Shown here: positions 26,156 through 53,033 of the stretch, piece by piece
Position numbering within the stretch: the first letter of the stretch is position 1
Layout of the letters: every line of letters begins with the position of its first letter
Assembly: GCF_900105145.1 (NCBI RefSeq)
Contig: NZ_LT629752.1
Span: 248,001 to 312,000, forward strand
Reading direction: 5' to 3'
Source of the DNA: Polaribacter sp. KT25b
GTDB taxonomy: Bacteria > Bacteroidota > Bacteroidia > Flavobacteriales > Flavobacteriaceae
DNA length: 64,000 nucleotides
Notes under the pieces: generated by a model
The model's database searches: none
Told to the model about the DNA's origin: nothing
The model's input: only the letters and a program-made list of their open reading frames with translations
Made by a program: the position numbers and the translations under genes

Positions 26156-26229
<74 letters not shown>

Positions 26230-26238
26230 TAGTAAAGA

Positions 26239-26270
26239 CAAGGCTTCACATTTCTGTGAAGCCTTTTTTA
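26239..26270 (+). terminator. tRNA terminator, element-borne copy
   Basis: AAGGCTTCACA pairs with TGTGAAGCCTT around a TTTC loop (11 bp) and is followed by a T-run. Its loop and inner stem are the same as in the terminator after attR (53207-53242), although the outer bases differ. The element thus brought a functional look-alike of the host terminator. Confidence 0.9.
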
Positions 26271-26278
26271 TTTTATCA

Positions 26279-26303
26279 GGTACAACATAGGTACAACAAA
26301 TAG
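26279..26303. repeat. Left arm-type site: 25-bp direct repeat
   Basis: Two tandem GGTACAAC octamers 11 bp apart (GGTACAACATA then GGTACAACAAA). The same 25 bases recur in the same orientation at 53034-53058, just upstream of the integrase. Identical sites inside both ends of an integrated element suggest integrase arm-binding sites. Confidence 0.75.
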
Positions 26304-26342
26304 CGTTTTTAAACACGCTTATTTGAACTATTACAATCTAAT

Positions 26343-26606
26343 TTAAAGTTCTCTTTCGTTTTGTTTTTGTTCTTTGCTTTTCATTTTTTCTAAAGTTTCT
26401 AATCTTGAGCGATTACGTTGTTCTAGTCCTGCCATAAACCCACTCATAAGAGCCTTCATTTTTTTGTTATTAGAGGCACTTTTTTTCATGGACTGATATT
26501 TCTTTTTTAATCGGTCTAAATTTTCTTTTGGAGAAAAAACCGCCAAAAGATACGCTTCGTTATAATAGTCTTGATACTCTTTATTTTTTGAAAATAACCA
26601 ACTCAT
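26343..26606 (-). CDS. Small hydrophilic protein of unknown function
   Basis: 87 residues, highly charged and mostly helical, with no signal peptide. It shares a pattern with the next gene upstream (97 residues): an N-terminal Y-x-L/M-x-x-(F/Y)-x-P followed by LDRL, then a G-rich helix and a charged tail. The two may be distant paralogues from a duplication. It is the last gene of a tightly spaced minus-strand mobilization operon (3 bases after its neighbour). Function unknown; an accessory role in transfer is possible. Confidence 0.6.
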   Translation of the reverse strand: MSWLFSKNKEYQDYYNEAYLLAVFSPKENLDRLKKKYQSMKKSASNNKKMKALMSGFMAGLEQRNRSRLETLEKMKSKEQKQNEREL

Positions 26607-26609
26607 AAT

Positions 26610-26903
26610 TTATCGTTCTTTTTCATCTTTTTCGATGCTTTTTTCTTGCGCCTTAATCTTTGCCAATTTTGCTTTACGTTCTTGGAGTTTTGCTCTTGAA
26701 TTTAAAAGTAATGACTTATGCTTTTCATAAGTGGCAATGCCTTTTTCTAACCCCTCCTTATAAGCTGAAATGTGCGGGAGTGTTAATAGTCGGTCTAAAA
26801 TTTTTGGATTATAAATAGACAACATATAACCGTTATTGAATCCTTGTAATATATGTGATTTCTCTTGTTCTGGTGTCATAATTTTATTTTTTTTGTTAAA
26901 CAT
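26610..26903 (-). CDS. Small charged helical protein of unknown function
   Basis: 97 residues. The N-terminal part GFNNGYMLSIYNPKILDRL resembles the 87-residue downstream protein. The C-terminal third is a Lys/Glu-rich helix (LQERKAKLAKIKAQEKSIEK) that could form a coiled coil. An internal Met (residue 9) is a possible alternative start. It lies 4 bases downstream of the HTH gene in the same operon. No family is recognised. Confidence 0.6.
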   Translation of the reverse strand: MFNKKNKIMTPEQEKSHILQGFNNGYMLSIYNPKILDRLLTLPHISAYKEGLEKGIATYEKHKSLLLNSRAKLQERKAKLAKIKAQEKSIEKDEKER

Positions 26904-26907
26904 TTGA

Positions 26908-27174
26908 TTAATAATTCGCGATATTTTTTTCTAAATACTCGTACAGGCTAGAAACCAAATACAAAATTGTTTTACGACTTGGTTGGCTGAAAATTATTTC
27001 TTGATTATTTCTAAGCGATTGTAAACTTGTCTTTCCAATGTTTAGAATTTCTCTCGCTCGTTCTCCATTGCACCATAGCTCTTCTACTTTTTCTTTTTCT
27101 TGAACCATTTCTACAATTTCTTGTACCAAACGGTAATACGCCTCTGTTTCAAGGCAAATAACATCTAAATTCAT
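26908..27174 (-). CDS. Helix-turn-helix DNA-binding protein (Bacteroidota excisionase-like family)
   Basis: 88 residues with a widely distributed Bacteroidota mobile-element pattern: ICLETEAYYRLVQEIVEMV near the start, then a MerR/excisionase-like helix-turn-helix (NGERAREILNIGKTSLQSLR), the segment IIFSQPSRKTILYLVSSLYEYLEKN, and the end. Such proteins bind DNA and may act as excisionase or as a regulator of transfer genes. It lies inside the mobilization operon near the left att site, which fits either role. Target site unknown. Confidence 0.78.
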   Translation of the reverse strand: MNLDVICLETEAYYRLVQEIVEMVQEKEKVEELWCNGERAREILNIGKTSLQSLRNNQEIIFSQPSRKTILYLVSSLYEYLEKNIANY

Positions 27175-27185
27175 AATTTTACTAT

Positions 27186-27362
27186 TTATAGTTTTGTTTT
27201 TATTGCCTGAAAAATTTCAAGCAGTTTTGTAATAATAATTTCTGATATAGAAATGAATACCCACAAAAGGTTTTTAGTAATAAAAACCAATGCTTTATAG
27301 CATTGGGTTTCTATGTTTGAAAGAAATTCGTATCTATTTGAATTGGTATTATTTGTTGTCAT
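27186..27362 (-). CDS. Small membrane protein of the mobilization operon
   Basis: 58 residues from the ATG at 27362 (an in-frame ATG at 27386 would overlap the upstream gene by 20 bases). A polar N-terminus (MTTNNTNSNRYEF) precedes a hydrophobic segment around residues 24-45 (VFITKNLLWVFISISEIII). No family is recognised. It lies between the HTH gene and another small hydrophobic protein, both on the minus strand. It may be an accessory to the coupling protein; that is inference. Confidence 0.5.
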   Translation of the reverse strand: MTTNNTNSNRYEFLSNIETQCYKALVFITKNLLWVFISISEIIITKLLEIFQAIKTKL

Positions 27363-27366
27363 AATT

Positions 27367-27597
27367 TTAAAATCTAATTCTATCAAAAACCATGACTATG
27401 ATTTTTAGTAATCCATTAAAAATGCTTCCGATAATTTGAATACTCTTCTCTAAAACAACCTCTATTATTTTTACAAAACCCGTAGCAAGTGGAGATAAAA
27501 TTTTTCCAATAATGGAAACACTTGTGTCAAATAATGCTTTAATGGGTTGAGGAAAAAATATACTAATAAACAGCAGGAATAATAAAATTGTAATCAT
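27367..27597 (-). CDS. Small hydrophobic protein preceding the coupling protein in the operon order
   Basis: 76 residues, hydrophobic throughout. One strong membrane segment lies at residues 1-17 (MITILLFLLFISIFFPQ), followed by amphipathic helices (IIGKILSPLATGFVKIIEVV). The start overlaps the end of the coupling-protein gene by 4 bases, so the two are translationally coupled. No family is recognised. It could anchor the coupling protein, which itself lacks obvious N-terminal membrane segments. Confidence 0.55.
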   Translation of the reverse strand: MITILLFLLFISIFFPQPIKALFDTSVSIIGKILSPLATGFVKIIEVVLEKSIQIIGSIFNGLLKIIVMVFDRIRF

Positions 27598-28946
27598 AAT
27601 TTGCTTCTGTTTTTTAGGGTTCTATTTTTAAAAAATGCGGTTGCTTTTAATTTCATTGGTTTATAGCTTCCATGAATGAAAAGGCATTCGTCATCTTTTA
27701 ATTGTGTTCTCACTTCTTCAGGAGTCATTAAATTTCTAGAAATACGATTCATAGGTTGATTGCGTTTGAAAACCCCTTTTGCAGAATAGCTTTCGGTTTT
27801 TACACCAAGCATATCAGACACAATCCGAGAACTTTCATAACTCAATCCGCCATAAAAGAGTTTGCTATTACAGTTTTCAAAAATTATTTTTGATTTACTA
27901 TTATATACAGAGGTAAGTTGCTCAAAGCTCTGTAAAATCAGGCTTAAATGAATTCTTTTCTTACGGTTAGTAGTAATGATGGTTTCAAAATTTGGAATAG
28001 CTCCAACATTCGCAAATTCATCCATAAAGCAATAAACGGCGTTACCTGTACTTTCAGTCATCAGAGATTCAAATAATTGGCGATAAAATAAATTCCAAAA
28101 ACCCTTGTAATATGGCATTTTATGCTCCTCTTGAGATAAATACAAGACGGTTCTTTTGTTTCTTAAATCAGTAAAAGAAAAAGTACTCTCAGAACAAACG
28201 GTAGTCAGTGTTTCCTCGCTATAGATATAAAGAGCCGTTTTAACCGTTGCTATGATTGACTGTTTTACTTTTTGGCTTCCAGCCATAAACGAACAATACT
28301 CATCAAAATCATCCTCGTTCAAAGCAAGTTCCATCAAAGCATTAATCTCCTCATCGGCATGTCCCATTTTGTTTACGAGTCTATTTACAAAGGCAAGGCT
28401 TCTATTTTCTACTGGAATTTTAAGAACTACTCCCAAAATGAGCAGTGTTAATATAGAAATCGAAGATTGCGTCCAAAATTGGTCGCCTTTAGAGTTCTCA
28501 TAGACAACACCAATTAAAGATTCTGCCATGATTTTTGCCGTGCTTTTGTTGGTTATTTTTAATAGGGGATTATGCTTTGCAGAATTAGTAGGGTTTGTTA
28601 GGTCTAAATAAATTGGCTCAAATCTTTGTTTGATTAGCCACGTTTCTGATAACTTTCTTATTTCTCCAGAAGGATCAAAAAATATAAGTGAAACATTTGA
28701 ACCCCATTTTCTTAAAGCTTGATTTAACACGAATCGAGTAGATTTCCCACCACCTGTAGGACTTATTAAAATTAAATTTTTATAAGAACTATCTTGATTT
28801 AATCGTAAGTCGTTAGCTATATATACACCAGAATTAGATGGCTTTAATAATTTGCGTTGCTCCCAAAACCCACAAAATTCAGCACTTCCATGAGAGCTAA
28901 CTTTCTCTGGGTTCAACAAATAATCAAAAAACGTTCTTTGGCTCAT
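27594..28946 (-). CDS. VirD4/TraG-type coupling protein (conjugative ATPase)
   Basis: 450 residues. Walker A SPTGGGKST at about 61-69, Walker B-like YCFMDEFANVG at about 306, then RKKRIHLSLILQSFEQL, a hallmark of the TraG/VirD4 family. Coupling proteins deliver the relaxase-DNA complex to a type IV secretion channel. N-terminal membrane helices usual for VirD4 are not evident (the protein is short), and two small membrane proteins are encoded just downstream. With the relaxase and MobC-like genes upstream on the same strand, it completes a mobilization module. Confidence 0.92.
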   Translation of the reverse strand: MSQRTFFDYLLNPEKVSSHGSAEFCGFWEQRKLLKPSNSGVYIANDLRLNQDSSYKNLILISPTGGGKSTRFVLNQALRKWGSNVSLIFFDPSGEIRKLSETWLIKQRFEPIYLDLTNPTNSAKHNPLLKITNKSTAKIMAESLIGVVYENSKGDQFWTQSSISILTLLILGVVLKIPVENRSLAFVNRLVNKMGHADEEINALMELALNEDDFDEYCSFMAGSQKVKQSIIATVKTALYIYSEETLTTVCSESTFSFTDLRNKRTVLYLSQEEHKMPYYKGFWNLFYRQLFESLMTESTGNAVYCFMDEFANVGAIPNFETIITTNRKKRIHLSLILQSFEQLTSVYNSKSKIIFENCNSKLFYGGLSYESSRIVSDMLGVKTESYSAKGVFKRNQPMNRISRNLMTPEEVRTQLKDDECLFIHGSYKPMKLKATAFFKNRTLKNRSKL

Positions 28947-28967
28947 AAAAATGGGATTAAAAATTAA

Positions 28968-29843
28968 TTACTGTTTTTCAATAGACCGTTCTTGGTCTCT
29001 ATTCTTTAATTGTTCTAATTCGTATAAACGAACTTCTTTTTTTAGATTTTCTATATCAATCAAAAGCCTAGTAAATCGAAATTTCTTATTTGTTTCAGTA
29101 ATGATTCCTGTGGGTTTACCATTTCTGGTATAAACAGAAAAATCTTCCTCCTTTTCAATTGATTTTAAAAAATCTTCCTTCTTTGGATATTTTTTGGCAA
29201 TACTGATAAGTTTCTCTTTAATGTTTTCTAATAGACTTTTTTGTCCTCGTTTTTTAGCACGAATAGAGCCATCCGTTTCTTTCATTTTTTCAGGTAATGG
29301 TATGCCAGTTAATGTTGATTTTTTACTTTTTTCTAATTCAGGTAGATATAGCAAGCTGTGTTTTAATTCAGGGAATTTTTGCTGATATCTATTCATATCA
29401 ATCTGAATTTCTTTTAGTCTTTGTTTTGATATTCTTCGAGATTTTCCATTACCAAATTGAGAAGCGGAAACCGCAAAATGTAGATGAATATTTTCTTTTT
29501 CAAAGTGAACTCTTCCAAAAGTTATAGCGGAATTAAAATTCATTAATTCTGAGAATTTTTGAGCAAAACCAAATAGTTTTTCAGTATTTAAAAAAAGTTT
29601 TTCCTTCGGATGAAAACTTAAAATGATATGCTGAACGCCAATTCGTTTCTGTTTTCCTTGTTTAATAAACTTATTATTTTGTTTAAAATCTTCGGCAACT
29701 TCTTTAGTGTTTTTTCCTAACGTATTATGTCTCAGAATGAAATTTTTTTCATTATCAAAATGTGTTTTTCCCTCATTAATATATCTGATTAATTGGGGTA
29801 AATTCGGTCGTGAAAGTGATCTACTTAGCATTTTAATCAGCAT
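28968..29843 (-). CDS. Relaxase / mobilization nuclease
   Basis: 291 residues. The metal-binding motif of relaxases is visible as HLHFAVSA (HxH, about residues 125-131), preceded by QHIILSFHPKEKL. The C-terminal half is Lys-rich and helical. The catalytic nucleophile would be an N-terminal Tyr (for example in IRYINEGK). It nicks oriT and leads the strand into the recipient. It overlaps the MobC-like gene by 11 bases and is followed by the coupling-protein gene after 21 bases. The MOB class cannot be fixed by eye; a MobP/MobV-like member is likely. Confidence 0.85.
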   Translation of the reverse strand: MLIKMLSRSLSRPNLPQLIRYINEGKTHFDNEKNFILRHNTLGKNTKEVAEDFKQNNKFIKQGKQKRIGVQHIILSFHPKEKLFLNTEKLFGFAQKFSELMNFNSAITFGRVHFEKENIHLHFAVSASQFGNGKSRRISKQRLKEIQIDMNRYQQKFPELKHSLLYLPELEKSKKSTLTGIPLPEKMKETDGSIRAKKRGQKSLLENIKEKLISIAKKYPKKEDFLKSIEKEEDFSVYTRNGKPTGIITETNKKFRFTRLLIDIENLKKEVRLYELEQLKNRDQERSIEKQ

Positions 29844-30339
29844 TGAGGTTAGGTATTAGATGAATAGGTTTAAAATTAATTTTAGGGCTTACATAAAGTG
29901 TGTTTACTATGTTTTCTAATTGATTAACTTGTTTAATTAATTCTGAAAATCTTCCTTCTGAAATATTTTTTTGGCTGTGAGACATGAAAACCAATTGATT
30001 TATATTATTAGAGCTTTTACGAATTAGCATTTTAGCTTCTTCAATATTTTCATTTATAGGTAAAAAAGCTTCACTTTGAATATAGGCTAAAGAGCTCTTT
30101 CTTATAAAAGTGGTCGGTTTTTCATCGTATTTTTTAGCAATATTTTTAATGGTTTCATACTCTTCATTCGAGAATAAAATCTCTATTCTTTTAGAATTAT
30201 TTCGGTAAGTTTTTAAATATTCCTTTTGATAATACTTTCTATAAGATTTTCTTGCCTCCTTCCATTCTTCTAGAGTAGTAGGTTTTATGCTGAAATGCGA
30301 TATGTATTGCTGAAAATTCATCATAGAAAAAAGGTTCAA
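29833..30339 (-). CDS. MobC-like relaxosome accessory protein
   Basis: 168 residues. A ribbon-helix-helix-like segment (RIEILFSNEEYETIKNIAKKYDEKPTTFIRKSSL, about 48-82) is followed by a helical region with the MobC-typical pattern NNINQLVFMSHSQ and a leucine-rich tail. MobC proteins bind near oriT and help the relaxase nick. The gene overlaps the relaxase start and lies just downstream of a candidate oriT hairpin at 30374-30394. The assignment is by motif and position. Confidence 0.8.
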   Translation of the reverse strand: MNLFSMMNFQQYISHFSIKPTTLEEWKEARKSYRKYYQKEYLKTYRNNSKRIEILFSNEEYETIKNIAKKYDEKPTTFIRKSSLAYIQSEAFLPINENIEEAKMLIRKSSNNINQLVFMSHSQKNISEGRFSELIKQVNQLENIVNTLYVSPKINFKPIHLIPNLNAD

Positions 30340-30373
30340 AAATTATTTGAATAAAATGTTTGGTTTATTTTTA

Positions 30374-30394
30374 TAACACAAACAATGTGTGTTA
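30374..30394. other. Candidate oriT inverted repeat
   Basis: TAACACA (30374-30380) and TGTGTTA (30388-30394) flank a 7-base spacer in the 65-base gap upstream of the MobC and relaxase genes. Origins of transfer commonly lie here and contain such repeats next to the nick site. Position and symmetry are the only evidence. Confidence 0.35.
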
Positions 30395-30404
30395 AGAAAT
30401 TTTT

Positions 30405-30935
30405 TTAAACTAAAACGAGTGCTTCGTATACAATAATTCGTTCTGCCATAGCATTCCAAAGGTTTTCGTATTCTCCTTCAATGCGAAGTTGTTGTTGATA
30501 AGTAGGGAAACGCTTAATGTATTTAGCTGATTTTGAGTTTTTTTCTAGTAGACCTTGCCCTAAATTAGCGGTCGAATCTGCTATTTTAACAGCTTTTGCA
30601 ACTGGAAATTTATTTAATAAAGCATAATTAGGTTCTCCATTCGATAGTTTTGTAAGTGCTATTACATTATTTAAAACATCTATTCCAAAAAGATTTTTAA
30701 TTTCTAAACGTGTAACATTAGGACAATCTTCTAAAACATCGTGAAGTAAAGCTGTTGCTAGGTATTCGGGCTCAGAATACCCCATAGAAATTAAATGTAA
30801 GAACACATCAGATAGGTGCTTAGAATAAGCGTGCTCTCCATAGCGCTGCTCTTCTTTAGCGTGAGCCTCAAAGGCGAAGTTTCTCGCCTTATAAATGAGG
30901 TCACTATTCTTAATATGTTGATTTTTTAATTTCAA
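30405..30935 (-). CDS. HD hydrolase of the RelA/SpoT (MESH1-like) type
   Basis: 176 residues. Metal-ligand motifs of ppGpp hydrolases are present: His25, HDVLED (65-70) and KIADSTANL with Asp120 and Asn124. GEHAYSKHLSDV matches the usual EPYIxHPxxVA region loosely. The synthetase and regulatory domains are missing, so it would be a small alarmone hydrolase or a related nucleotide phosphohydrolase. It starts 8 bases after the E1-like gene on the same strand and probably belongs to the conjugation-like operon. Whether it acts on (p)ppGpp or on another nucleotide is unknown. Confidence 0.75.
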   Translation of the reverse strand: MKLKNQHIKNSDLIYKARNFAFEAHAKEEQRYGEHAYSKHLSDVFLHLISMGYSEPEYLATALLHDVLEDCPNVTRLEIKNLFGIDVLNNVIALTKLSNGEPNYALLNKFPVAKAVKIADSTANLGQGLLEKNSKSAKYIKRFPTYQQQLRIEGEYENLWNAMAERIIVYEALVLV

Positions 30936-30943
30936 AGTGGTGT

Positions 30944-31837
30944 TTATTTTTCTTTGATCATTTGTTGTAATTTACCTTTGCAATCTGGACAAGTATTATA
31001 TCCGTTATCTGGTATTTCAGCTTCAATTCTTTGCCAATAAGAATTAAAGTTTTGAGCATTCATTCCGACATTATTAAAAGCATTATCAAACAGTTTATTC
31101 CCACCTAAAGGGTGTACTTTAAATTGGATAAAATTGTAGTTGATTTTACCATCTTCATTTTTCATTTCTTGAAAAAATGATGCAAATTCAAAATCATTTT
31201 TTCTTTTTAAATGATTTTTATGAAGTATTGCCAAAGCAATAAATCCAATAAAGCTGTCTAGATGTTGTGAATGAAAAATGGTATTACAATTTGAAGAAAC
31301 TTTAATTTCTTCTTTTTTATTTGCTAAATACCGATAAGAACAACAACATCTAAAACAAGATGGTGTATATTTTGGTATTGAAAAGAAAATTTCAGCAGTT
31401 CTGCTTTTTGCATAAAATCCAGCCCAAATAGCAGGGATCATATATTTTAAAGCGAGAATATTTCCAAAAGATTGAGCCTTAAAACTATCTGTTAAAAAAA
31501 GTGCTAAATCTGCCTCTTTGAAAATAGTATCTAATTCTGTTTCATTCATGTCATGGAAGTTTTTAGTAATTCCAAGGTATTCAGTGTCAGGGTTTATTTG
31601 AGAAACCGCTTTTCCTAAAGCATTGACTTTGTAATTACCTATATCGGTTTGATTATATCCTTGTCTTACTATGTTTGAAGCCTCTACGGTGTCAAAATCT
31701 AACACCGTTATTTTACCTATTCCTGTTCTTGCTAAAGAACAAACAAGGGAATAAGAACCACCTGCTCCTACAACTATAATATGAGTTCTTTGGAGTAATT
31801 TTATATCCACTGCTTCTATTATTCTTGAATAATCCAT
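30944..31837 (-). CDS. ThiF/E1-like adenylyltransferase
   Basis: 297 residues from the ATG at 31837. The frame is open to 31927, but the extra part overlaps the JAB gene and lacks family text. Rossmann ATP-binding motif VVGAGGS (22-28), then LDFDTVEASNIVRQ (46-59) and Lys70, as in E1 enzymes that adenylate the C-terminal Gly of ubiquitin-like proteins. Two Cys pairs, CFRCC in the middle and CPDC near the end, probably bind zinc. It follows the JAB gene by 5 bases and precedes an HD hydrolase by 8. Its partner protein is not obvious; see the 20-residue ORF at 33045. Confidence 0.88.
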   Translation of the reverse strand: MDYSRIIEAVDIKLLQRTHIIVVGAGGSYSLVCSLARTGIGKITVLDFDTVEASNIVRQGYNQTDIGNYKVNALGKAVSQINPDTEYLGITKNFHDMNETELDTIFKEADLALFLTDSFKAQSFGNILALKYMIPAIWAGFYAKSRTAEIFFSIPKYTPSCFRCCCSYRYLANKKEEIKVSSNCNTIFHSQHLDSFIGFIALAILHKNHLKRKNDFEFASFFQEMKNEDGKINYNFIQFKVHPLGGNKLFDNAFNNVGMNAQNFNSYWQRIEAEIPDNGYNTCPDCKGKLQQMIKEK

Positions 31838-31842
31838 AATAT

Positions 31843-32592
31843 TTAATTTAAAAGTTGCTGAATAATGTATTTGTAAAAAACTGGTATCAATACAATTAGA
31901 AAACCTAAAAGTATTATTAGAAAACAAGTAAAAATGACTTGATAAAGCTGAGAGAAATTGAAACTATCAAGAATAGTTTTATGTACTCGTTCTTCTGTTT
32001 CTTTTTTAATCTCATCTATTTTTAAAGGAATTGTTTTAGGCTCTACTTTAAAAGTGTTGTTGATTTTAATTACTGTTTTGCTTTTGTAATTATTAATCTT
32101 CTTTTTTTTTCGAGTAGACTTTTTTTTCTTTTTTGTAATTTCATTAGAGTTCGTTACTATTTCTAACTCTAATGTATCTACCGTTCCATTTTTGTTATAG
32201 GCTAATGGGATAAACTTGAATCCACCATCTTTGGCGGAAAATACCAATGGTGTTAAAAATTTTTCCACATCAATATTCTTAAATTGAGAAGCGAAATAAT
32301 CTTTATCAGGCTGTGATAGCCTTCCTAAGCCATAAGGATGACTATGAATAAACCCAAGTAATTCTAGTTCTTCTTCATCCCACCATTTCTTAATAATAGG
32401 ATTTAAATACCCAGTATTAAAAGTGTAACTGCTTCGTGTATTAATCGAGTTTTTGTCAAACAAAAATCGAGTAACTGTAAAATCTTTTCTAGAACCAAAG
32501 AGTAACCCGCCAGACTCAGCTGGCTTGTTACCTATGGTAGCTTTTATTTCATCAAAAGCAGATTGAGTTATTTTAAATTTTTTAGTTTCCAT
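31843..32592 (-). CDS. JAB/MPN metalloprotease with Lys-rich linker and C-terminal membrane anchor
   Basis: 249 residues. A complete JAMM zinc site is present: Glu26 (PAESGG), His83-x-His85, Ser93 and Asp96 (HSHPYGLGRLSQPD). JAMM proteases remove ubiquitin-like modifiers or process their C-terminus. After the domain (about 1-145) come a Lys-rich linker (about 153-172) and one membrane segment (about 217-240), so the protease is probably tethered to the membrane, which is unusual for the family. It sits between the E2-like and E1-like genes with 5-base gaps. Confidence 0.88.
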   Translation of the reverse strand: METKKFKITQSAFDEIKATIGNKPAESGGLLFGSRKDFTVTRFLFDKNSINTRSSYTFNTGYLNPIIKKWWDEEELELLGFIHSHPYGLGRLSQPDKDYFASQFKNIDVEKFLTPLVFSAKDGGFKFIPLAYNKNGTVDTLELEIVTNSNEITKKKKKSTRKKKKINNYKSKTVIKINNTFKVEPKTIPLKIDEIKKETEERVHKTILDSFNFSQLYQVIFTCFLIILLGFLIVLIPVFYKYIIQQLLN

Positions 32593-32597
32593 AACTC

Positions 32598-32945
32598 TTA
32601 ATTTCGCATTTGAACTTGTCTGTCAATTGTAATTCCTGTGGCTATATACTTACAAGTTAAATCAGCCCATTCAGCACTTATTTGTTTAGCTCTTTGTAAA
32701 TTGGTAGGCTCGCTACCCACTGTTATACAAATTCTTCTTGTTGCATCTCGCGAGGAAGATAAATAATGGCAAATTAGAGAACTATTAGGACGATCTTCAT
32801 AACTAGGTTGTTGATGAATATCAATTTCAAAATGGTTGCCTACTTTGTGATAACTGAATTTAAAAATGGACCCGTTTTTAGCTACATATTTATAAACTTG
32901 ATAAGTCAGTAATGTTCCTTTTGTAATTTGTTCTGAAAATTTCAT
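32598..32945 (-). CDS. Possible E2-like protein of the E1/JAB operon
   Basis: 115 residues with no signal or membrane segment. The C-terminal half runs HYLSSSRDATRRICITVG, then AEWADLTCKYIATG. The spacing of Cys73 (in RICI), Trp93 and the ATG tail loosely recalls the region after the catalytic Cys of bacterial E2-like proteins (xLCLx then EWLxxYExWLATG, as in type II CBASS). It lies 5 bases upstream of the JAB gene, and E2-JAB-E1 is a known bacterial order. The match is by eye and weak; it could equally be an unrelated partner. Other cysteines are Cys59 and Cys98. Confidence 0.45.
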   Translation of the reverse strand: MKFSEQITKGTLLTYQVYKYVAKNGSIFKFSYHKVGNHFEIDIHQQPSYEDRPNSSLICHYLSSSRDATRRICITVGSEPTNLQRAKQISAEWADLTCKYIATGITIDRQVQMRN

Positions 32946-32975
32946 ATTTAGATGTTTTTATTAAATTTTAAAATA

Positions 32976-32995
32976 AGCGGGCATTTCAGCCCGCT
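32976..32995 (-). terminator. GC-rich hairpin between the 20-residue ORF and the E2-like gene
   Basis: AGCGGGC (32976-32982) and GCCCGCT (32989-32995) form a 7-bp stem with a 6-base loop. On the minus strand it is followed by TTATTTTAAAATTT. It could act as a partial terminator or processing site that lets the upstream ORF be made in excess of the enzyme genes. Confidence 0.6.
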
Positions 32996-33044
32996 GTTAA
33001 AAATTTAGATACTATTGTTCACTAAACTTTTAAAAAAATTTGGT

Positions 33045-33107
33045 TTATCCAACATGGAGAGTTCCTTCTCCAATGGCTTCACCACCTTTAGTAGGTCTTG
33101 TAGACAT
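33045..33107 (-). CDS. Candidate 20-residue peptide ending in Gly, upstream of the E2-like/JAB/E1 genes
   Basis: A short ORF with an ATG at 33107, an A-rich leader typical of flavobacterial starts, and TAA at 33045-33047. The peptide begins MSTRPTKGGEA, is Gly-rich (6 of 20) and ends LHVG. It reads in the same direction as the operon and is separated from it by the hairpin at 32976-32995. E1 enzymes adenylate a C-terminal residue, usually Gly, and some ThiF-like enzymes act on very short ribosomal peptides (MccB on MccA). A modifier or precursor role is therefore conceivable. An ORF this short may also be chance. Confidence 0.35.
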   Translation of the reverse strand: MSTRPTKGGEAIGEGTLHVG

Positions 33108-33179
33108 AATTCTATTTTTTTGGCACGCTTAAACATTCACATCTCGTTTTTTTGAACAGCTCAACGAGTAAAAACTGTA

Positions 33180-33380
33180 TTATATTTTCTTTTTAAAAAT
33201 TAAAATCAATAATGCTAAAATTGAACCTGCTATTCGATTGAAACTCCAAACTATTCCAGTAAAAATCATAGAGAAAAAACCTCTGTCAAAGACTGCAATG
33301 GGTGGACAAATAAAAAGCAGGATTCCTTTAAAAATTTTCTTAATGAACTTCCTCACTTTTATTGTCTTTAAAATTTTCAT
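33180..33380 (-). CDS. YqaE/Pmp3-like small membrane protein
   Basis: 66 residues from the ATG at 33380; an in-frame ATG six codons upstream is possible. Two hydrophobic segments flank a short polar turn, and the text FICPPIAVF is the Pmp3/YqaE signature. This is followed by a second helix (IAGSILALLILIF). The family is small plasma-membrane proteins linked to stress and membrane potential. Here the N-terminus is unusually basic. It overlaps the preceding 61-residue ORF by 41 bases and lies in the minus-strand cargo of the element. Confidence 0.65.
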   Translation of the reverse strand: MKILKTIKVRKFIKKIFKGILLFICPPIAVFDRGFFSMIFTGIVWSFNRIAGSILALLILIFKKKI

Positions 33381-33525
33381 TAAATATTCTTGTCGCACAA
33401 AATTTTGCGTAACTACGGCATTGATAAAATGTCCCGTATTTTTGAGGAACAGGTAATTTTATATTTTGAAAAAATTCTTTATTAGAAAGAATAGCACTTG
33501 TTAATTGTTCTATCGTTGGTTTCAT
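33340..33525 (-). CDS. Small unknown protein overlapping the Pmp3-like gene
   Basis: 61 residues from the ATG at 33525 (MKPTIEQLTSAILSNKEFF). The frame is open further upstream, but that part lacks coding character. It is charged, soluble-looking, and contains YGTFYQCRSYAKFC with two cysteines. No family is recognised. Its 3' end overlaps the Pmp3-like gene by 41 bases in another frame, and the A-rich start context is normal. Moderately supported as a real gene. Confidence 0.45.
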   Translation of the reverse strand: MKPTIEQLTSAILSNKEFFQNIKLPVPQKYGTFYQCRSYAKFCATRIFNENFKDNKSEEVH

Positions 33526-33605
33526 AATTCTATGTTTTTTGATTTGGTTTTGGAGATTAAAAAATTTAAAGGAGCGAAAAATGTTAAATATCGCTCCTGT
33601 TAGTT

Positions 33606-33740
33606 TTAAGAACTGATGACTAAGCAAAAAATACCAAAGCCAAGAAAAATGGCTACTTGAATAATTGTAACTAAAACGAGCTCTTTAACTGGTTCTTTAC
33701 TCGTAAGTTCATGTCTGCTGTAACTTCTCATAATAGGCAT
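33606..33740 (-). CDS. 44-residue single-span membrane protein
   Basis: An ORF starting with ATG at 33740. A polar N-terminus (MPIMRSYSRHELTSKEPVKE) is followed by one membrane segment (LVLVTIIQVAIFLGFGIFCLVI) and a short tail. It is in line with the other minus-strand small genes of this part of the element and lies just downstream of the 11-bp tandem repeats. No family is recognised. The clean amphipathic-free hydrophobic segment supports a real small protein. Confidence 0.45.
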   Translation of the reverse strand: MPIMRSYSRHELTSKEPVKELVLVTIIQVAIFLGFGIFCLVISS

Positions 33741-33812
33741 ATTTAAAAGTTTTTAGCTTCTTACTTTAAAAAGCTTTCAGCAAAGCTAGAGATGAAAATC
33801 AACAAAAAAAGG

Positions 33813-33856
33813 GCAGATGAAAAGCAGACGAAAAGCAAACTAAAAGCAAATGGGAA
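33813..33856. repeat. Four tandem 11-bp repeats (iteron-like)
   Basis: GCAGATGAAAA, GCAGACGAAAA, GCAAACTAAAA and GCAAATGGGAA follow one another without gaps. The 11-bp period places each unit on the same face of the helix, as in iterons or clustered regulator sites. They lie between the small membrane-protein gene (start 33740) and the 155-residue gene (stop 33862), outside any convincing ORF. Confidence 0.65.
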
Positions 33857-33861
33857 AGAGT

Positions 33862-34329
33862 TTAACTCAAACGATTTTTCTTAAAAAATTCCTCAGAAGT
33901 CATATTCCGATATCTTATAAGTTTTTTGTTGTAAATTCCTTGAAAAACGATGATATAATGATTAATGTCTTTAAGCTTTTCATAATTATTATCCTTTAAT
34001 GCTTGAGGCACATCAAATTCAACATCTCCTTTCCCACCACGTCTGCTCAACATATCATGAACAGAGTGATTCAAAACCCTAAAAACAGCGTCAGTATTGA
34101 AGTCAATAAATCCTTGAATACCATGTAATTCATAAGATTCATTATTACTATTTAAAATCTTATGATTTAATTTTTCATGTATAATTTGTAATTTTTCAGG
34201 ATTTAGCCATTCACTAGCCTCAGTTGTAGGAATTGGTATTCCTGAAAATTCATTAACAGAATCTTCTGAAGGTTCATGAAAATTTGGTTTAATATGATAA
34301 ATGCCATTTGAATTTAATTTTTTGTCCAT
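33862..34329 (-). CDS. Unknown protein, 155 residues
   Basis: Soluble protein with no signal peptide. Readable blocks are GIPIPTTEASEWLNPEKLQIIHEKLNHK in the middle and a basic segment MLSRRGGKGDVEF, then a C-terminal part IIVFQGIYNKKLIRYRNMTSEEF. I do not recognise a family. It is divergent from the 261/777-residue pair (28 bases between starts), so it might regulate that pair. Base composition is like that of the other cargo genes. A regulator, antitoxin or immunity role would each be speculation. Confidence 0.6.
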   Translation of the reverse strand: MDKKLNSNGIYHIKPNFHEPSEDSVNEFSGIPIPTTEASEWLNPEKLQIIHEKLNHKILNSNNESYELHGIQGFIDFNTDAVFRVLNHSVHDMLSRRGGKGDVEFDVPQALKDNNYEKLKDINHYIIVFQGIYNKKLIRYRNMTSEEFFKKNRLS

Positions 34330-34357
34330 TAATTAGATTATATTTAAAAAATTAAAA

Positions 34358-35143
34358 TTGTCAATAGTGCCAAATAAAGCAGTATATATAGAAGAGTTAA
34401 GAAAAAGAGTTATTTCTAAAACAAAAGAAATAGGAGGTTTTAATAAAGACGAAAATGTTTTTTTTGTAACTCCTGCAAACTTATTAATTAAGCTAGAAGA
34501 ATATGATTATGACTGTTCAAAAGGTATTAAAGAGTCATATAAAATATTAGAAAGTAATATTAAAAAATGTTTTAAGAGTATTAATTATAAAGCAGTATTT
34601 GAATTTGCAGAGTTAATTGACAAAGAGACAAAGGAAAAGATAAAAAAAACAGATTTAATTATAGATTCTTGCATAATAAGCTCAGATACTTTTCAAAGGT
34701 TTAACAAAATAAATGGTACTAAAGGTTTAGACAATAAAACCTTTGATTACTTTAGTTTTTATCTAGGTTATGCAGGTTGGGGTGGTTTTCAAAATAATAT
34801 AACAATTGCTGATTGCTTTATGTTAGATATGGATAGTCCTAATATAAAACTAATTTTTTCGAAGTTTGATATAAACGGTTATAAAGAGAGCTTAAAAAGT
34901 AAAGAGAAAATAAACTATAATAAAAGAGAACAAAGTGATTTTTTAGATATAGAAGATGTTGAAATAAAACCTCCTAAAATAGGGGATGTTTTAGCTGCCC
35001 AAATGGAAGAAGAGGATGAAGAAGAAAAAAATACAGCTTCAATTTATATGAAAATTTACGAAAAAAGCTTTTTAAATGAAACAGAAAAATTAAGAGTAGC
35101 TTTCAAAGAAAATCTAAGTAAAGGTAACGACCCTTTTTTTTAA
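34358..35143 (+). CDS. Unknown protein, first gene of a two-gene cargo unit
   Basis: 261 residues. No ATG is available at the 5' end; TTG at 34358 or GTG at 34367 (then MPNKAVYIEELRKR) must start it. It is soluble, with a central block CIISSDTFQRFNKINGTKG and YLGYAGWGGFQNNITIADC, and an acidic C-terminal third (AAQMEEEDEEEK). I recognise no domain. It is followed after 23 bases by the 777-residue TPR gene, and both have very low GC and non-ATG starts. The pair is isolated among other defence-type genes of the element. Confidence 0.6.
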   Translation: MSIVPNKAVYIEELRKRVISKTKEIGGFNKDENVFFVTPANLLIKLEEYDYDCSKGIKESYKILESNIKKCFKSINYKAVFEFAELIDKETKEKIKKTDLIIDSCIISSDTFQRFNKINGTKGLDNKTFDYFSFYLGYAGWGGFQNNITIADCFMLDMDSPNIKLIFSKFDINGYKESLKSKEKINYNKREQSDFLDIEDVEIKPPKIGDVLAAQMEEEDEEEKNTASIYMKIYEKSFLNETEKLRVAFKENLSKGNDPFF

Positions 35144-35166
35144 CCAAAAACACATTTTCTAAATTA

Positions 35167-37500
35167 TTGAGCGCTTTAAAAATAGATGATTATTTATTTC
35201 AAGTATTAAATTTTTATTTTCAAGAGAAAGAAGATTTGAATATAAGAAGCCAAAAAATAGCATTGATTTCTGGCTTGAATTTATCTTTTATAAAAAATTA
35301 TTCAAAATGTAAAGAAGACTATTTATCTCAATTAATTCTAAGAAACGATGAAGATATTTCAATGCATGCAACAATAGGGCTGTTTTTAGGAGTTTTATGT
35401 AATAAAGCAAAGGAATCATCAATTTTAAGCAGTCTCGTTCAAATTAAGCGTATTCAAAACACTATATTGGAGATGCTAAATTATCTGATTGTTCAATTGA
35501 AAACTGGTTATCAAACAGAAAGAGCTCCTATGCTTTTAAAACACTTTAATGATCATTTTAAATGGTTTTTACCCGATGTAATAGATGATGAATATTTTTC
35601 AATATCAATACCATTCAATAATATAAAATTTTGTTGTTATGGTGAAAACTTTTATAACGAGGGGGTAGTAAATACAAAAAATATAAAAATCGATAGTGAT
35701 TTAAAATACATTTTTTCTTTAACAAATAAAAAAATAATTAATAATTCAAAAAAGAGTAAAGGAGTATACTTTTATTTGGATCAATTATTTACGGCAACTC
35801 TAAATCATAATAAAATTGAAAATATAGGATTAGTATTAAAAGAAAAAATAATTTCAAACGTATTTAATTTTACTGTAGAACTACAAAAAACAATTAAATC
35901 GAGTTATTTTTCTGGTATTATTTTAATGGGTAAAAATAAAAGTGAATTAGCATTAAACGATTTAAAAAACGATAAGTATATTAATAATAGCAATAAAATA
36001 AGTCATATAATTAAATGTTACAATGATTTAAATAGGTATGAAGAAGCTATAGCTTTTTCATTAGAAAATGAAAAAATCGAGGATAGAATTGATTATTATG
36101 CTCTAATAGGTCACGCATATTACAAGAATAGTGATTATACTAAGGCAATATATTATTTAGAATTTACATTGCAAAGTAAGTTTGATTTATTAAATGATGA
36201 TAATAAGTCATATGTTTTTGAAACTTTAGGATTACTGTATTATAAGGTAGGTGATTTAAATAAATCTAAAACTTTATTTAAAGGTTATTTAGAAAAAGAC
36301 AATAACAAATCTGATTATGCTTTGTATTTTATGGCATTTCTTTTACAGAAAGAATCTAATTATAAAAAAGCAATAGAACTTTATGGGTTACTAATTAAAA
36401 GAAAATATAGAGAAAAAAAATGTCTTTATGATTTATTTGAATGTTACTTAGCTTTAAACGATTTTGATAATATAAAAAGTACAATTTCTAGGATTGGAGA
36501 AATAGACGATTGTTTGAATGATTTTTGTGTTTTTTTGTATTATAAAAAGAATGAAGACTATAAAAATATGTGGTTGATTCTTGAGGATTTAAAAATAGAA
36601 AACATAGAAGATACAAAAATATTAAACGATTTAGGAATTTTTTATAATGATGAGTTTGGTGATTCAAAAATGGCTCGTAAATTTTTTAAAAAAGCGTATA
36701 AACTAAAACCAAACATAGTAGTCTATCTTGAAAACATAATTCAAACTTATTTTTCTGAAATGGTTTTTATTGCGTCTCTAAAAAGTTTTGAAATTTTAGA
36801 AGAAATTAAACCATTTCTTATAGAACTAGAAAAGCAATATGGCAAAGGAGATAAGTATTCATTGTATAAGTTTCAATATCATTTTTATAGAAGTGTTTAT
36901 TTGAATATTGATGAGTTTGGAATAGCTAAATCTTATCATAAGGATAAAGAAATAGTTGCAACTGTTTTTGGAAAGAAAATTACAGGAAAGAGTCCTATAA
37001 ATATAAATCAAATTCAAAATACAACAGTAGAGGATTTAATTTTACAGTTTAAAACAGGAAGGGTGATTTTTCCTTTTTATTCTAAAGAGGTTTTAAAAAG
37101 AATCGGAATTACAAAAATAGAGTCTTTTAGTTTTACACTCTTTATTTCTACTATATTTAAGAATTTTTATAATGAAGAAAAAATTGGCTATGTAAACAAA
37201 ATTATAGATGAAAATTCAATGATTTCTGTTTGTGAGTATTTACGAAATGATAGTATTGATAAATCATATATTGGGTTTCTATATTTATTAGAAATATGTT
37301 TTTTTAATAGCAATTTAATTGAAGGGCAAGAGTTTATTAAAAATAACTTAAGGGAGGTGTCTTATTTATTAGATAATTTCCCTTCGGAATTTAGTTTTAA
37401 AATAGTTGAGGGAGATATTCCTTATATAGACCTTAACGAGAATTATCTTAAAAATTTCAAAAATAGGATGAAATATTCATTGAATAGCATTATGCGATAA
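35167..37500 (+). CDS. Large TPR-repeat protein of unknown function
   Basis: 777 residues starting at TTG (35167). No in-frame ATG occurs for 65 codons, so the start is either this TTG or uncertain. The N-terminal ~250 residues are helical and unassigned. About 300-470 contain tetratricopeptide repeats (YALIGHAYYKNSDYTKAIYYLEF; FETLGLLYYKVGDLNKSKTLF; KKAIELYGLLIKRKY). The C-terminal 250 residues are unassigned (LILQFKTGRVIFPFYSKEVL). No signal or membrane segment is visible. TPRs suggest protein binding. It probably works with the 261-residue protein encoded just upstream. Defence, regulation or transfer control are all open. Confidence 0.6.
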   Translation: MSALKIDDYLFQVLNFYFQEKEDLNIRSQKIALISGLNLSFIKNYSKCKEDYLSQLILRNDEDISMHATIGLFLGVLCNKAKESSILSSLVQIKRIQNTILEMLNYLIVQLKTGYQTERAPMLLKHFNDHFKWFLPDVIDDEYFSISIPFNNIKFCCYGENFYNEGVVNTKNIKIDSDLKYIFSLTNKKIINNSKKSKGVYFYLDQLFTATLNHNKIENIGLVLKEKIISNVFNFTVELQKTIKSSYFSGIILMGKNKSELALNDLKNDKYINNSNKISHIIKCYNDLNRYEEAIAFSLENEKIEDRIDYYALIGHAYYKNSDYTKAIYYLEFTLQSKFDLLNDDNKSYVFETLGLLYYKVGDLNKSKTLFKGYLEKDNNKSDYALYFMAFLLQKESNYKKAIELYGLLIKRKYREKKCLYDLFECYLALNDFDNIKSTISRIGEIDDCLNDFCVFLYYKKNEDYKNMWLILEDLKIENIEDTKILNDLGIFYNDEFGDSKMARKFFKKAYKLKPNIVVYLENIIQTYFSEMVFIASLKSFEILEEIKPFLIELEKQYGKGDKYSLYKFQYHFYRSVYLNIDEFGIAKSYHKDKEIVATVFGKKITGKSPININQIQNTTVEDLILQFKTGRVIFPFYSKEVLKRIGITKIESFSFTLFISTIFKNFYNEEKIGYVNKIIDENSMISVCEYLRNDSIDKSYIGFLYLLEICFFNSNLIEGQEFIKNNLREVSYLLDNFPSEFSFKIVEGDIPYIDLNENYLKNFKNRMKYSLNSIMR

Positions 37501-37677
37501 CATCTAACTAAAACATTTACTAATTACGTACAACCCAAAATATTTTAAAAAACAGGTAGCTGTATGCTAGGTTTTTCTAGCTATAGAGATTTGTGCCCTC
37601 TTATTTATTTCTTAACCCCGTTTTTTTAGTTCCTTAAAAAGGGCTTTTTTTCTTGTGCATTTTTAACAAAAATAAAC

Positions 37678-37911
37678 ATGAAAACAAAAAGAGAATTTGT
37701 GTTCGTTCAGAAGGCGCTTTTTTCGCCAATTTCAAAATCTGATTTTGATATAGGAAAAGGAGCTTTGGTTGACTTGGAATTAGTTACCGAAGCTTTAGCT
37801 GAATTTTTAAAACTTGAATATATTAAAGATTCAACCTGCCTATCTGGAAACGTGTTAAGGCTTTTTCAACTTAGAAAAGTTGATTTTATAAATAGAGAAT
37901 TTCAAGAATAA
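37678..37911 (+). CDS. Small unknown protein, 77 residues
   Basis: Starts with ATG and encodes a soluble, mixed-charge protein (KREFVFVQKALFSPISKSDF to VDFINREFQE) with one clear central helix (LVDLELVTEALAEFLKLEY). No family is recognised. The upstream 177 bases contain no gene and include a pyrimidine-rich stretch. It lies 285 bases before the serine recombinase and reads in the same direction. It may be an accessory of the recombinase or a remnant; evidence for expression is limited to a clean reading frame. Confidence 0.5.
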   Translation: MKTKREFVFVQKALFSPISKSDFDIGKGALVDLELVTEALAEFLKLEYIKDSTCLSGNVLRLFQLRKVDFINREFQE

Positions 37912-37986
37912 TTTTTAACCCCAACTTCATGACTTATATTTCATTAATTAAACAATTTATTTGTCCCTAACACTTTCATCTCTCCT

Positions 37987-38121
37987 ATTTGGACTATTGA
38001 AGAAATTCAACAGTTTCAAAAAATAATTAAGTTAGAAACCAATCAAGAAATATCCGAAAAAGAAGCAAAAAAAATGCTTTTGAATCTTTATGAATGCTTT
38101 CATATGTTCATTTATGATTGA
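37987..38121 (+). CDS. Possible small helical protein with non-standard start, or a remnant
   Basis: An open frame in the 285-base gap reads WTIEEIQQFQKIIKLETNQE and then ISEKEAKKMLLNLYECF before TGA. This looks like a short helical protein type found beside genes in Bacteroidota mobile elements (x-E-E-I-x-x-F-Q ... EAxxMxxNLY). No ATG, GTG or TTG is in frame after the upstream stop; ATT at 37987 is the nearest possibility. It may therefore be a 5'-damaged copy. Confidence 0.35.
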   Translation: MWTIEEIQQFQKIIKLETNQEISEKEAKKMLLNLYECFHMFIYD

Positions 38122-38196
38122 GTTCTTTTTTTATAAATTTTGAATATTTCAAAAAAACCTTTATGATAATCAAACTATTTCTTCTCCCTTCATTCA

Positions 38197-39825
38197 ATGA
38201 AATACTATGCGTATATCCGAAAATCTTCTGAGGATAAAAAAAGACAGATTCAATCTATACCTAAGCAATATAAATGGTGTAAAACAGAAGCTAAACGAAG
38301 AGGGTTAAAAATCGCTAAATTTTTTGAAGACAGCAGTTCTGCACACAAATTAAATAGACAAGGGTTTAAAGATATGATTGCAGCAATAGAAAAATCCGAA
38401 GAACCAATTGGTGTAATTACATGGAAAATTTCTCGTTTGGCTAGAAATCCTATTGATGAAGGAGTTATTAAATACGCTTTTATGCGTAAAAAAATAACGC
38501 ATATTCTTGCTCGTGATAGGGAATATAGAGAGAATGAAAATCAGATTATAATGGGTGTTGACTTTGGACAAGCTACCCAGTTTTCGATAGAATTATCTAA
38601 AGATGTAAAAGAAGGTATGAATAAGAAGGTTTCAAGTGGTTATAGGCCAGTGAAAGCCCCTTATGGTTATGTAAATGACCCAGTAGGTTTGAAGGGTGAG
38701 AAGAAAATTTTTGTAGATGACAAGTATTTTAAACCCATTCAACAATTTTTAAAATCATTTGCTACAGGGATATATTCTGTTCCAGAATTAAGAAAAAAAA
38801 TGACAGAAGAGGGGATTCTTGCAAGGTCTAATAAACCTTTTTCTAATAGTAGTTTGTATTTAATTCTAAAAAGGCGTTTTTATTGTGGGGAATATTACTG
38901 GCAAGGAAAATTGATAAAAGGAAAACATAAGCCAATGATAACGGTTGAAGAATATGAGAAAATTCAGTTTTTATTGGGAAGAGAACAAAAAATTAGTCAA
39001 AGTAAATATCAGAACTATTATTCGGGTTTTATTAAGTGTTCTAGATGTAAGTCTTTCATAACAGGGTATTCGAAAACTAAACTTAATCGTTTTAAAGGAG
39101 TTTCAACTTATCATTATTTAAAGTGTGTGAATAAGGATAAAAATTGCACTCAAAAACCACTTACAAGAGCCAAAATTGATAGCGAAGTTTTATTAATACT
39201 TAAAGGTTTAACTCTTTCTGAAAGTATCATTGATTTTGTACTGGTTAAGTTGAAGGAAGTGAGCGAACAAGAAGAAAATCAAGATGCTAAAAAAATACAA
39301 TTACTTATAAGACGGAATACTGAAATAGAAAATGAAATTACTGTTTTAGGAGAAAAGCTAATTAAAGGAATTATAAAAGATGATTTGTATCTAAAAATGA
39401 ATCAAAAATTAGAAGAAGAATTATCATTAATTCAACAAAGAATAAAGAATCAAAAAAAACAAACTGAGCTAGATTTTGATAAAGTAAGAAGCCTATTTGA
39501 ATTCACTCTTCATGCACAAGAAAAATTCCAGTCTGGCACATTTGAACAAAGAAAAAAGATTTTAAATCTAATTGGATCGAACTTCTTAATAAATGGAGAA
39601 AAACTAAGCATAGAGTTGTCTTTAGCCTTTTCAATTATAAAAAAAATCAAACATCTGTTTGACTTGGAAAATAGAAGAATCGAACTCAATTATAACCGCT
39701 CTAGTAAAGGCTTAAAGCCTGTTTTATGTACTGATAGTTTGGTTTGGAGCTCCTTACGGGAACGATTACGAACTTATTTCCTTGAAAACATAGGTATAGA
39801 ATCAACCTTAGAAAACAAAATTTAG
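38197..39825 (+). CDS. Large serine recombinase
   Basis: 542 residues. The N-terminal resolvase domain starts MKYYAYIRKSSEDKKRQ with the nucleophile Ser near residue 10 and ISRLARNP later. The recombinase domain (SSGYRPVKAPYGYVND, FYCGEYYWQGKLIKGKHKPMI) is followed by a zinc ribbon (FIKCSRCKSFITGYS ... YLKCVNKDKNC) and a coiled coil (about 365-430). Such enzymes integrate and excise elements. A second integrase type inside a tyrosine-integrase element suggests a nested insertion or an ancestral fusion of two elements. No att pair for it could be found by eye. Confidence 0.92.
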   Translation: MKYYAYIRKSSEDKKRQIQSIPKQYKWCKTEAKRRGLKIAKFFEDSSSAHKLNRQGFKDMIAAIEKSEEPIGVITWKISRLARNPIDEGVIKYAFMRKKITHILARDREYRENENQIIMGVDFGQATQFSIELSKDVKEGMNKKVSSGYRPVKAPYGYVNDPVGLKGEKKIFVDDKYFKPIQQFLKSFATGIYSVPELRKKMTEEGILARSNKPFSNSSLYLILKRRFYCGEYYWQGKLIKGKHKPMITVEEYEKIQFLLGREQKISQSKYQNYYSGFIKCSRCKSFITGYSKTKLNRFKGVSTYHYLKCVNKDKNCTQKPLTRAKIDSEVLLILKGLTLSESIIDFVLVKLKEVSEQEENQDAKKIQLLIRRNTEIENEITVLGEKLIKGIIKDDLYLKMNQKLEEELSLIQQRIKNQKKQTELDFDKVRSLFEFTLHAQEKFQSGTFEQRKKILNLIGSNFLINGEKLSIELSLAFSIIKKIKHLFDLENRRIELNYNRSSKGLKPVLCTDSLVWSSLRERLRTYFLENIGIESTLENKI

Positions 39826-40025
39826 TTATTTGTGAGCAAATTTTTTGAACAATGTATTCGTTTTTAAGAAAGATTTCTAAATACTCCTAGCTAGTTAAAA
39901 AAAGAAAACACAAACCTATTTTCCAGTTTGTAAAAAATAAAAGGATTTGCCTCTGCGAGTTCCTCCTTGTTTTTTTTAAAACTTTCAAATGTACGGAGTG
40001 TATTCATTTTTTAATCTATCATACT

Positions 40026-40397
40026 ATGAGCACTACAAGAAACATTTCTGAGAAAAAACTAAAAAAACAATTGCAAAAAGTATTAGCTGAAAACCCAAAT
40101 ACCGTAAAAGCGTGTGTTATTCAAGAAGCTTTTGATTACCATAACATTACAGATTTCTTTGAAGATTTACTTCAAAATGGTTGTTCCAGTGGAATGATTA
40201 GCTCATTAATCTACTACCGTGACACAGAAAAATTCTTTGATTTCCACTATGAAGAAATAATGGATTTGAAAACTGAATTTGAAGAGTCTACAGGTGAGGT
40301 AATGCATATACCACATCAATTAAAAAATCATTTAGCTTGGTTTTCTTTTGAGCAAGTTGCTTATGATTTAGCAGATTTTTTAGGGCTTGAGATATAG
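40026..40397 (+). CDS. Small unknown protein (DUF7222-like)
   Basis: 123 residues, soluble. The pattern NGCSSGMISSLIYYRDTEKFFDFHYEEIMDL, followed by an acidic helix and a C-terminal LAWFSFEQVAYDLADFL, is like that of a small family often encoded near mobilizable-element cargo in Bacteroidota, for which I recall the name DUF7222; the name is uncertain. No catalytic motif is visible. It precedes alkB on the same strand by 54 bases, and the palindrome at 40413-40459 lies between them. Confidence 0.55.
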   Translation: MSTTRNISEKKLKKQLQKVLAENPNTVKACVIQEAFDYHNITDFFEDLLQNGCSSGMISSLIYYRDTEKFFDFHYEEIMDLKTEFEESTGEVMHIPHQLKNHLAWFSFEQVAYDLADFLGLEI

Positions 40398-40412
40398 CCC
40401 TATTTAAAAATT

Positions 40413-44720: not shown

Positions 44721-44722
44721 TA

Positions 44723-48755: not shown

Positions 48756-48793
48756 GGATTGGAACCTCAATGAATAAATAGTTTTTAAACCAA

Positions 48794-48825: not shown

Positions 48826-48867
48826 ATGTAAAGTTTAATAATTTTTAAACACTATAAATTTTAATGT

Positions 48868-53000: not shown

Positions 53001-53033
53001 AAATTTATTTTACTAAAACAAAGATACAAATTT

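Follow-up and report, generated by a model that had tools for sequence, protein, structure and literature searches.

Organization of the locus

In a 64,000-nucleotide stretch of the genome of Polaribacter sp. KT25b (contig NZ_LT629752.1, positions 248,001 to 312,000), which we refer to as the window, we analyzed a minus-strand cassette that encodes E2-like, JAB and E1-like proteins together with a short open reading frame (ORF). A preliminary description of this DNA had reported a gene set E2-like/JAB/E1/HD at positions 30405-32945 of the minus strand, which our ORFs and Pfam matches confirmed, and had stated that a folded ubiquitin-like gene was absent. Neither the ORF list of the window cassette nor Pfam scans of the encoded proteins let us recognize a folded ubiquitin-like modifier, although not every small ORF was searched structurally. 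However, a candidate peptide modifier at the edge of the described interval had been overlooked, and this ORF (33107-33045) is probably the missing modifier. The features of the cassette are as follows.

33045..33107, minus strand: peptide ORF, candidate modifier, 20 codons, MSTRPTKGGEAIGEGTLHVG; kept in all six loci with a short E2-like protein
32598..32945, minus strand: E2-like protein with invariant His60 and Cys73, 115 residues
31843..32592, minus strand: JAB/JAMM protease with a C-terminal hydrophobic (transmembrane-like) segment, 249 residues; Pfam Prok-JAB, 2.7e-7
30944..31837, minus strand: E1-like adenylyltransferase, 297 residues from ATG; Pfam ThiF, 2.5e-28
30405..30935, minus strand: HD hydrolase of the RelA/SpoT type, accessory, 176 residues, TTG start; Pfam HD_4, 1.2e-7

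The four genes from E2-like to HD lie 5-8 nt apart, and the order of transcription is peptide ORF, E2-like, JAB, E1, HD, NikA/MobC-like protein, relaxase and VirD4-like coupling protein. The mechanically called E1 ORF starts farther out, at 31927, compared with the ATG-based start at 31837.

Nine distinct loci were compared: the window and L004-L009 (from the E1 alignment), L026 (also through E1) and L024 (through the E2-like profile). Repeat finds of places already counted (L010, L011, L012-L023, L025, L035 and L001) were left out. Six of the nine, the window and L004-L008, have a short E2-like protein, and in three (L009, L024 and L026) the motif is fused to the E2-like protein in two to four copies. 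The proposal that the four genes recur together held for E2-JAB-E1, found in all nine loci, but not for the HD gene, relatives of which occur in only three; it stands downstream in the window but upstream in both L004 and L006. The HD hydrolase is accessory.

A conserved peptide and its repeats in E2-like proteins

All six short-E2 loci have an ORF of 19-20 codons, 99-125 nt upstream of the E2-like gene, whose product ends in G-T/V-L-H plus one or two residues; those behind Leu-His are A, S, VG or TN. Beside the window peptide, the sequences are MRKSNRKGVDELEPGTLHA in L004 and L006, the same with N as third residue in L005, and MKKSNRKGVEELQGGVLHS and MKNSNTKGGGYIDPGTLHTN in the other two loci (L007 and L008). 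Since L004-L006 are closely related, the six loci represent about four lineages. Such an ORF appeared in 0 of 1000 dinucleotide shuffles of each of the six 400-nt upstream stretches.

The same motif lies within E2-like proteins. In L009 and L024 it forms four tandem 11-residue units, and the E2-like protein of L026 has two spaced copies, NPGLVIPPGTLHH and NPGLVIPKGTLHA. A profile search returned 151 E2-like homologs, and the counts that follow come from the 120 listed. At least two strict GGEEIKPGTLH-type units are present in 54 of them; a looser pattern finds 278 units, 141 of which are GGEEIKPGTLH, and a single protein can contain G-x-L-[HCRY] as many as 14 times. What follows the motif was tallied at 363 sites: GG at 238 and a residue pair starting with S or A at 90, together 328 of 363. 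With the loose pattern, the motif is found in 67 of the 68 long homologs and in 41 of the 52 short ones, the other 11 short ones lacking it in their first 40 residues; the E2-like N terminus of L008, where the separate peptide is kept, also lacks it.

Within L009 and within L024, the units differ from one another by 5-9 synonymous codons and by 0-3 non-synonymous ones, an excess that shows selection to be acting on their residues. When the L009 protein was modeled, the predicted local distance difference test (pLDDT) score was 42-51 over residues 1-80, comprising the leader and first three units, and this region is unfolded in the model. The score rises to 74-81 over residues 81-100, where the last copy shows partial order against the core, and exceeds 90 for most of the core itself. 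An identity of the arrays as HicA_toxin, raised by weak Pfam matches of P0125, P0126, P0133 and P0136, was rejected: these are summed matches to a 12-residue repeat, no single stretch of which passes, and they are explained by the likeness of the unit to one short part of the HicA_toxin profile.

Conserved features of the enzymes

The 115-residue protein was modeled confidently by AlphaFold2, at a pLDDT of 90.2, and VIA-align aligned this model to E2s, with a CBASS E2 as the best match; for a second E2-like model, the top match was UFC1, albeit a weak one. Foldseek alone gave no match at E ≤ 0.001, a Pfam scan of the protein gave none, and a single-sequence search retrieved only the protein itself and one relative. 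Profile comparisons by hhalign with a Bradyrhizobium operon protein and with the CBASS Cap2 N terminus were not significant. Structural alignment thus favors an E2 fold, whereas sequence profiles do not confirm it. His60 and Cys73 are present in 64 of 64 proteins of an alignment (A6) whose members we chose.

The E1 is a single ThiF-type module of about 300 residues. Its search gave 226 matches, and residue counts were taken from the 120 listed. The motifs reported previously (GAGGS, DxxxxxSNxxRQ and two Cys pairs) were correct and are conserved among these homologs: ten adenylation positions that we checked are identical in 120/120, Cys161/Cys164 are present in 120/120, and Cys283/Cys286 in all 119 rows that reach them. 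Beyond these two CxxC pairs there is no invariant cysteine, position 184 being Ser in 60, Cys in 50, Ala in 7, Gly in 2 and Phe in 1, which makes it unlikely that an E1 thioester is required. By profile, the closest solved relatives are UBA5 (1.6e-16), MccB (1.8e-15), MoeB (7.4e-15) and ThiF (4.6e-12).

Our E1 tree included eight references and a single host paralogue, but not the host-paralogue row own_L002, which had been cut to 24 residues. The E1 does not group with sulfur-carrier or molybdopterin enzymes: the 13 family rows form a clade of their own (97/97) outside the ThiF/MoeB/MoeZ references used. Deeper joins are weak, including the one to CBASS and ubiquitin-like-operon E1s (75/81), which has long branches. 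The E1 reached no equivalog cut-off in an NCBIfam scan, and among PADLOC profiles the E1-E2 profile matches it at 9.9e-17, the JAB profile matching the JAB protein at 2e-9.

The JAB metal site (E...HxH...S...D) was likewise assigned correctly, as Glu26, His83, His85, Ser93 and Asp96, and both this site and the C-terminal hydrophobic segment are kept in 9/9 loci.

RNA features around the peptide ORF

Three further features on the minus strand flank the peptide ORF.

32976..32995, minus strand: G+C-rich hairpin with a T-rich tail (terminator-like), between the peptide ORF and the E2-like gene
32997..33033, minus strand: second predicted hairpin behind the peptide ORF
33143..33172, minus strand: conserved 5' element TTTACT-N-AAAANGAG, a possible pseudoknot

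In all six short-E2 loci, the interval between the peptide ORF and the E2-like gene folds better than its shuffles (z of -3.2 to -4.4) and has a G+C-rich hairpin at the same place, with a stem sequence that varies between lineages. Only the window hairpin matches the terminator pattern; in the other five loci (L004-L008) the T tract is not long enough and the terminator scan found none. The scan that picked out the window hairpin returned 4 terminators compared with a shuffle mean of 1.4, and a promoter scan found 20 compared with 20.1 in shuffles. By analogy with the terminator between mccA and mccB of microcin C (PMC6495379, as far as its available text goes), the hairpin could possibly allow excess transcription of the peptide gene. 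The second hairpin, with the recurring sequence GTGAAG..A.AGTA.CTC, lies between the peptide ORF and the G+C-rich hairpin in L004-L007 and is weaker in the window and L008.

The 5' element, TTTACT-N8..24-AAAANGAG, occurs once per locus upstream of the peptide ORF in 6/6 loci (33143-33172 in the window, 6718 in L004, 6729 in L005, 6718 in L006, 6669 in L007 and 6662 in L008) and is absent from the remainder of the window and of the loci then compared. Prediction allows it a pair of interleaved helices, whose score is clearest in the window, L004 and L006, for which 1, 0 and 0 of 300 mononucleotide shuffles were as good, and less clear in L005, L008 and L007 (6, 12 and 24). An Rfam search of the window and L004 stretches at E values up to 5 gave only matches far below gathering scores.

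A mobile element as genomic setting

The cassette was previously placed on a mobile element, and this assignment proved sound: 43-bp direct repeats of the 3' part of tRNA-Met, at 26187-26229 and 53159-53201, flank relaxase, coupling-protein and integrase-like genes and delimit an element of about 27 kb. Judged from the repeats, the relaxase and the integrase recognized by eye, it is a putative integrative mobilizable element.

26187..53201, no strand: integrated mobilizable element in tRNA-Met with 43-bp terminal repeats
27594..28946, minus strand: VirD4-like coupling protein; CD1115 family, 2e-65 (221 bits; cut-off, 250)
28968..29843, minus strand: relaxase; Pfam Relaxase, 2.9e-11
29833..30339, minus strand: NikA/MobC-like mobilization protein; NikA-like, 1.3e-5, just under the Pfam cut-off
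51789..53000, minus strand: tyrosine-type integrase, recognized by eye

Relatives of the relaxase and of the VirD4-like protein follow the cassette in eight of nine loci, the window counted, and five of these eight (the window, L004, L008, L009 and L024) also have a MobC-like relative. No relative of any of the three proteins was found in the 17 kb available for L026.

The E1 was present at E ≤ 1e-40 in 2/395, 1/397, 1/173, 1/229 and 1/45 genomes of overlapping samples; the E2-like protein occurred in 2/395 and 2/173. Each count includes the seed genome. The E1 is thus rare and scattered, as expected of mobile elements. In plasmid records, E1 matches occurred in 119, but at no place did they cover 80% of the query; the E2-like protein had no match, and an array protein had five distant repeat matches. 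A phage origin was rejected, as three viral-contig scans contained no related locus. One array protein had no match among phage records, and a PHROG search gave none for the E2-like or JAB protein; it did match the E1 (function unknown) and the HD protein (phosphohydrolases among others).

The same element also appears by eye to hold genes for type I restriction-modification (hsdM, hsdS, a RhuM-like gene and hsdR; 41512-48755) and, in addition to the integrase, a large serine recombinase (38197-39825). Separately, on a Bradyrhizobium plasmid (L033, 948-3900), genes for a JAB protein, a protein of 155 residues and a ThiF-family protein are followed by nuclease-domain and TIR genes; this stretch resembles a further ubiquitin-like operon in a defense setting.

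A model for peptide conjugation

On balance, we lean toward reading the locus as a cassette for ubiquitin-like conjugation in which a short unfolded peptide, rather than a beta-grasp protein, serves as the modifier. The direct evidence consists of the genes and their motifs, the conserved peptide and array, the predicted folds and the neighborhoods, from which we infer the chemical steps, target and purpose. In this model, the modifier peptide would come either from the separate 19-20-codon gene or from the repeats at the N terminus of the E2-like protein. The JAB protease, taken to be membrane-anchored, would trim the peptide, or cut the array, after the small residue or residues behind Leu-His. 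The E1 would adenylate the new C terminus and, because it has no conserved cysteine besides the four paired ones, would hand the peptide directly to Cys73 of the E2-like protein. This protein would then join the peptide to a target amine at or near the membrane, and JAB would also undo the conjugation.

Since mobilization genes are the constant neighbors of the cassette, parts of the mobilization or mating machinery would be the likeliest targets. That the cassette serves mobilization, as its neighborhood suggests, we consider possible, at somewhat short of an even chance. The complete proposal, an E1/E2/JAB system for an unfolded peptide of 11-20 residues, encoded as a polyprotein in some species, with which mobile elements control their own transfer, is offered only tentatively.

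An unlikely alternative is that the locus makes a peptide natural product: the E1 would activate the peptide in the manner of MccB, with the E2-like protein presenting the precursor, JAB processing it, and the modified peptide (an adenylate, thiocarboxylate or crosslink) being the end product. Among solved relatives of the E1, MccB comes second only to UBA5, and the short precursor gene, the repeated cores and the hairpin, given the mccA/mccB terminator, are in line with this scenario. However, an E2-like protein with invariant His and Cys and a JAB protease are not part of microcin C clusters as the available text of PMC6495379 describes them, and no exporter or immunity gene was recognized by eye in the window operon, no search for one having been made.

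Somewhat less probable again is a docking scaffold, in which the motif recruits E1, JAB or the actual modifier to the E2-like protein, with an array that only raises avidity and a separate peptide that acts as a regulator. While the fusion of the motif to so many E2-like homologs and the partial ordering of the last copy against the core fit this idea, the motif has a gene of its own in all six short-E2 loci, L008 keeps the peptide without a fused copy, and no folded modifier gene was recognized in the cassettes.

It is improbable that the 20-codon ORF is a leader peptide, part of an RNA switch or attenuator for an operon whose enzymes act on something else. The hairpins behind the ORF in 6/6 loci and the 5' element with its potential interleaved helices would suit such a role, but the identical amino acid motif recurs as selected repeats inside E2-like proteins, where an attenuator would make no sense.

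Finally, a Bil-like antiphage system with an HD effector and a folded modifier encoded elsewhere, or none, is very improbable: the E2-JAB-E1 order, the PADLOC matches and the type I restriction genes seen by eye on the element speak for it, but HD occurs in 3/9 loci, the constant partners are relaxase and coupling protein, and the E1 is one short ThiF-type module rather than a two-domain BilD with a Cys domain (PMC11354881, in its available part). The original interpretation, a defense or element-maintenance system of an unusual subtype, is supported in part.

Were the peptide-conjugation model true, the fold of the modifier would be dispensable for E1-E2-JAB conjugation, and ubiquitin-like conjugation would be joined to MccB-type peptide activation and linked to horizontal gene transfer. 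A 20-residue synthetic substrate makes each step directly testable.

Comparison with known systems

A literature search, repeat strings included, found no earlier report of the peptide or array, although such absence is weak evidence given the thin coverage of subscription papers and preprints. The PRTRC cassette also has a ThiF-family protein on mobile elements; the PRTRC_ThiF profile matches our E1 at 8.6e-8, but with 31.8 bits against a cut-off of 144.75. The UFM1 pair UBA5/UFC1 provides the nearest solved E1 by profile and the top match of the second E2-like model, although these matches are weak and UFM1, in contrast to the cassette peptide, is a folded modifier.

Bil (BilABCD) and other bacterial ubiquitin-like operons share with the cassette adjoining E1, E2-like and JAB genes in one operon, and Bil-type features appear to be present in the E2-like Cys73 (64/64) and the JAB metal site. 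As described in the available part of PMC11354881, BilA has two ubiquitin-like domains, and BilD consists of an inactive and an active adenylation domain plus a Cys domain. The cassette differs in its one-module E1, which lacks this two-domain arrangement, and in its candidate modifier, either a peptide of 20 residues or a repeat of 11. Operons with tandem ubiquitin-like domains, E1, E2-like and JAB proteins have been reported, with no short-peptide version in the accessible text (PMC1779556).

Whereas Bil-type conjugation uses folded ubiquitin-like modifiers, CBASS conjugates a whole enzyme: its enzymes act on a protein that lacks a ubiquitin fold and terminates in Gly or Ala (PMC10097602, available portion). 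Cap2/Cap3 and the cassette would thus share E1, E2 and JAB activities, read here from the genes, and a conjugate without a ubiquitin fold. Unlike CBASS, the cassette has no cGAS-like gene, its E1 and E2 are separate, and its candidate substrate is a short peptide.

MccB adenylates a peptide, according to the available text of PMC6495379. MccA/MccB and the cassette have in common a ThiF-type enzyme for a short peptide and a hairpin between the peptide and enzyme genes, with adenylation presumed here by analogy; the cassette, however, adds E2-like and JAB proteins, and its peptide has 19-20 residues or is repeated, rather than having 7. Lastly, like polyubiquitin and bacterial poly-ubiquitin-like proteins, the arrays would encode a modifier as tandem units, but these units are about 11 unfolded residues rather than folded ubiquitin-type domains.

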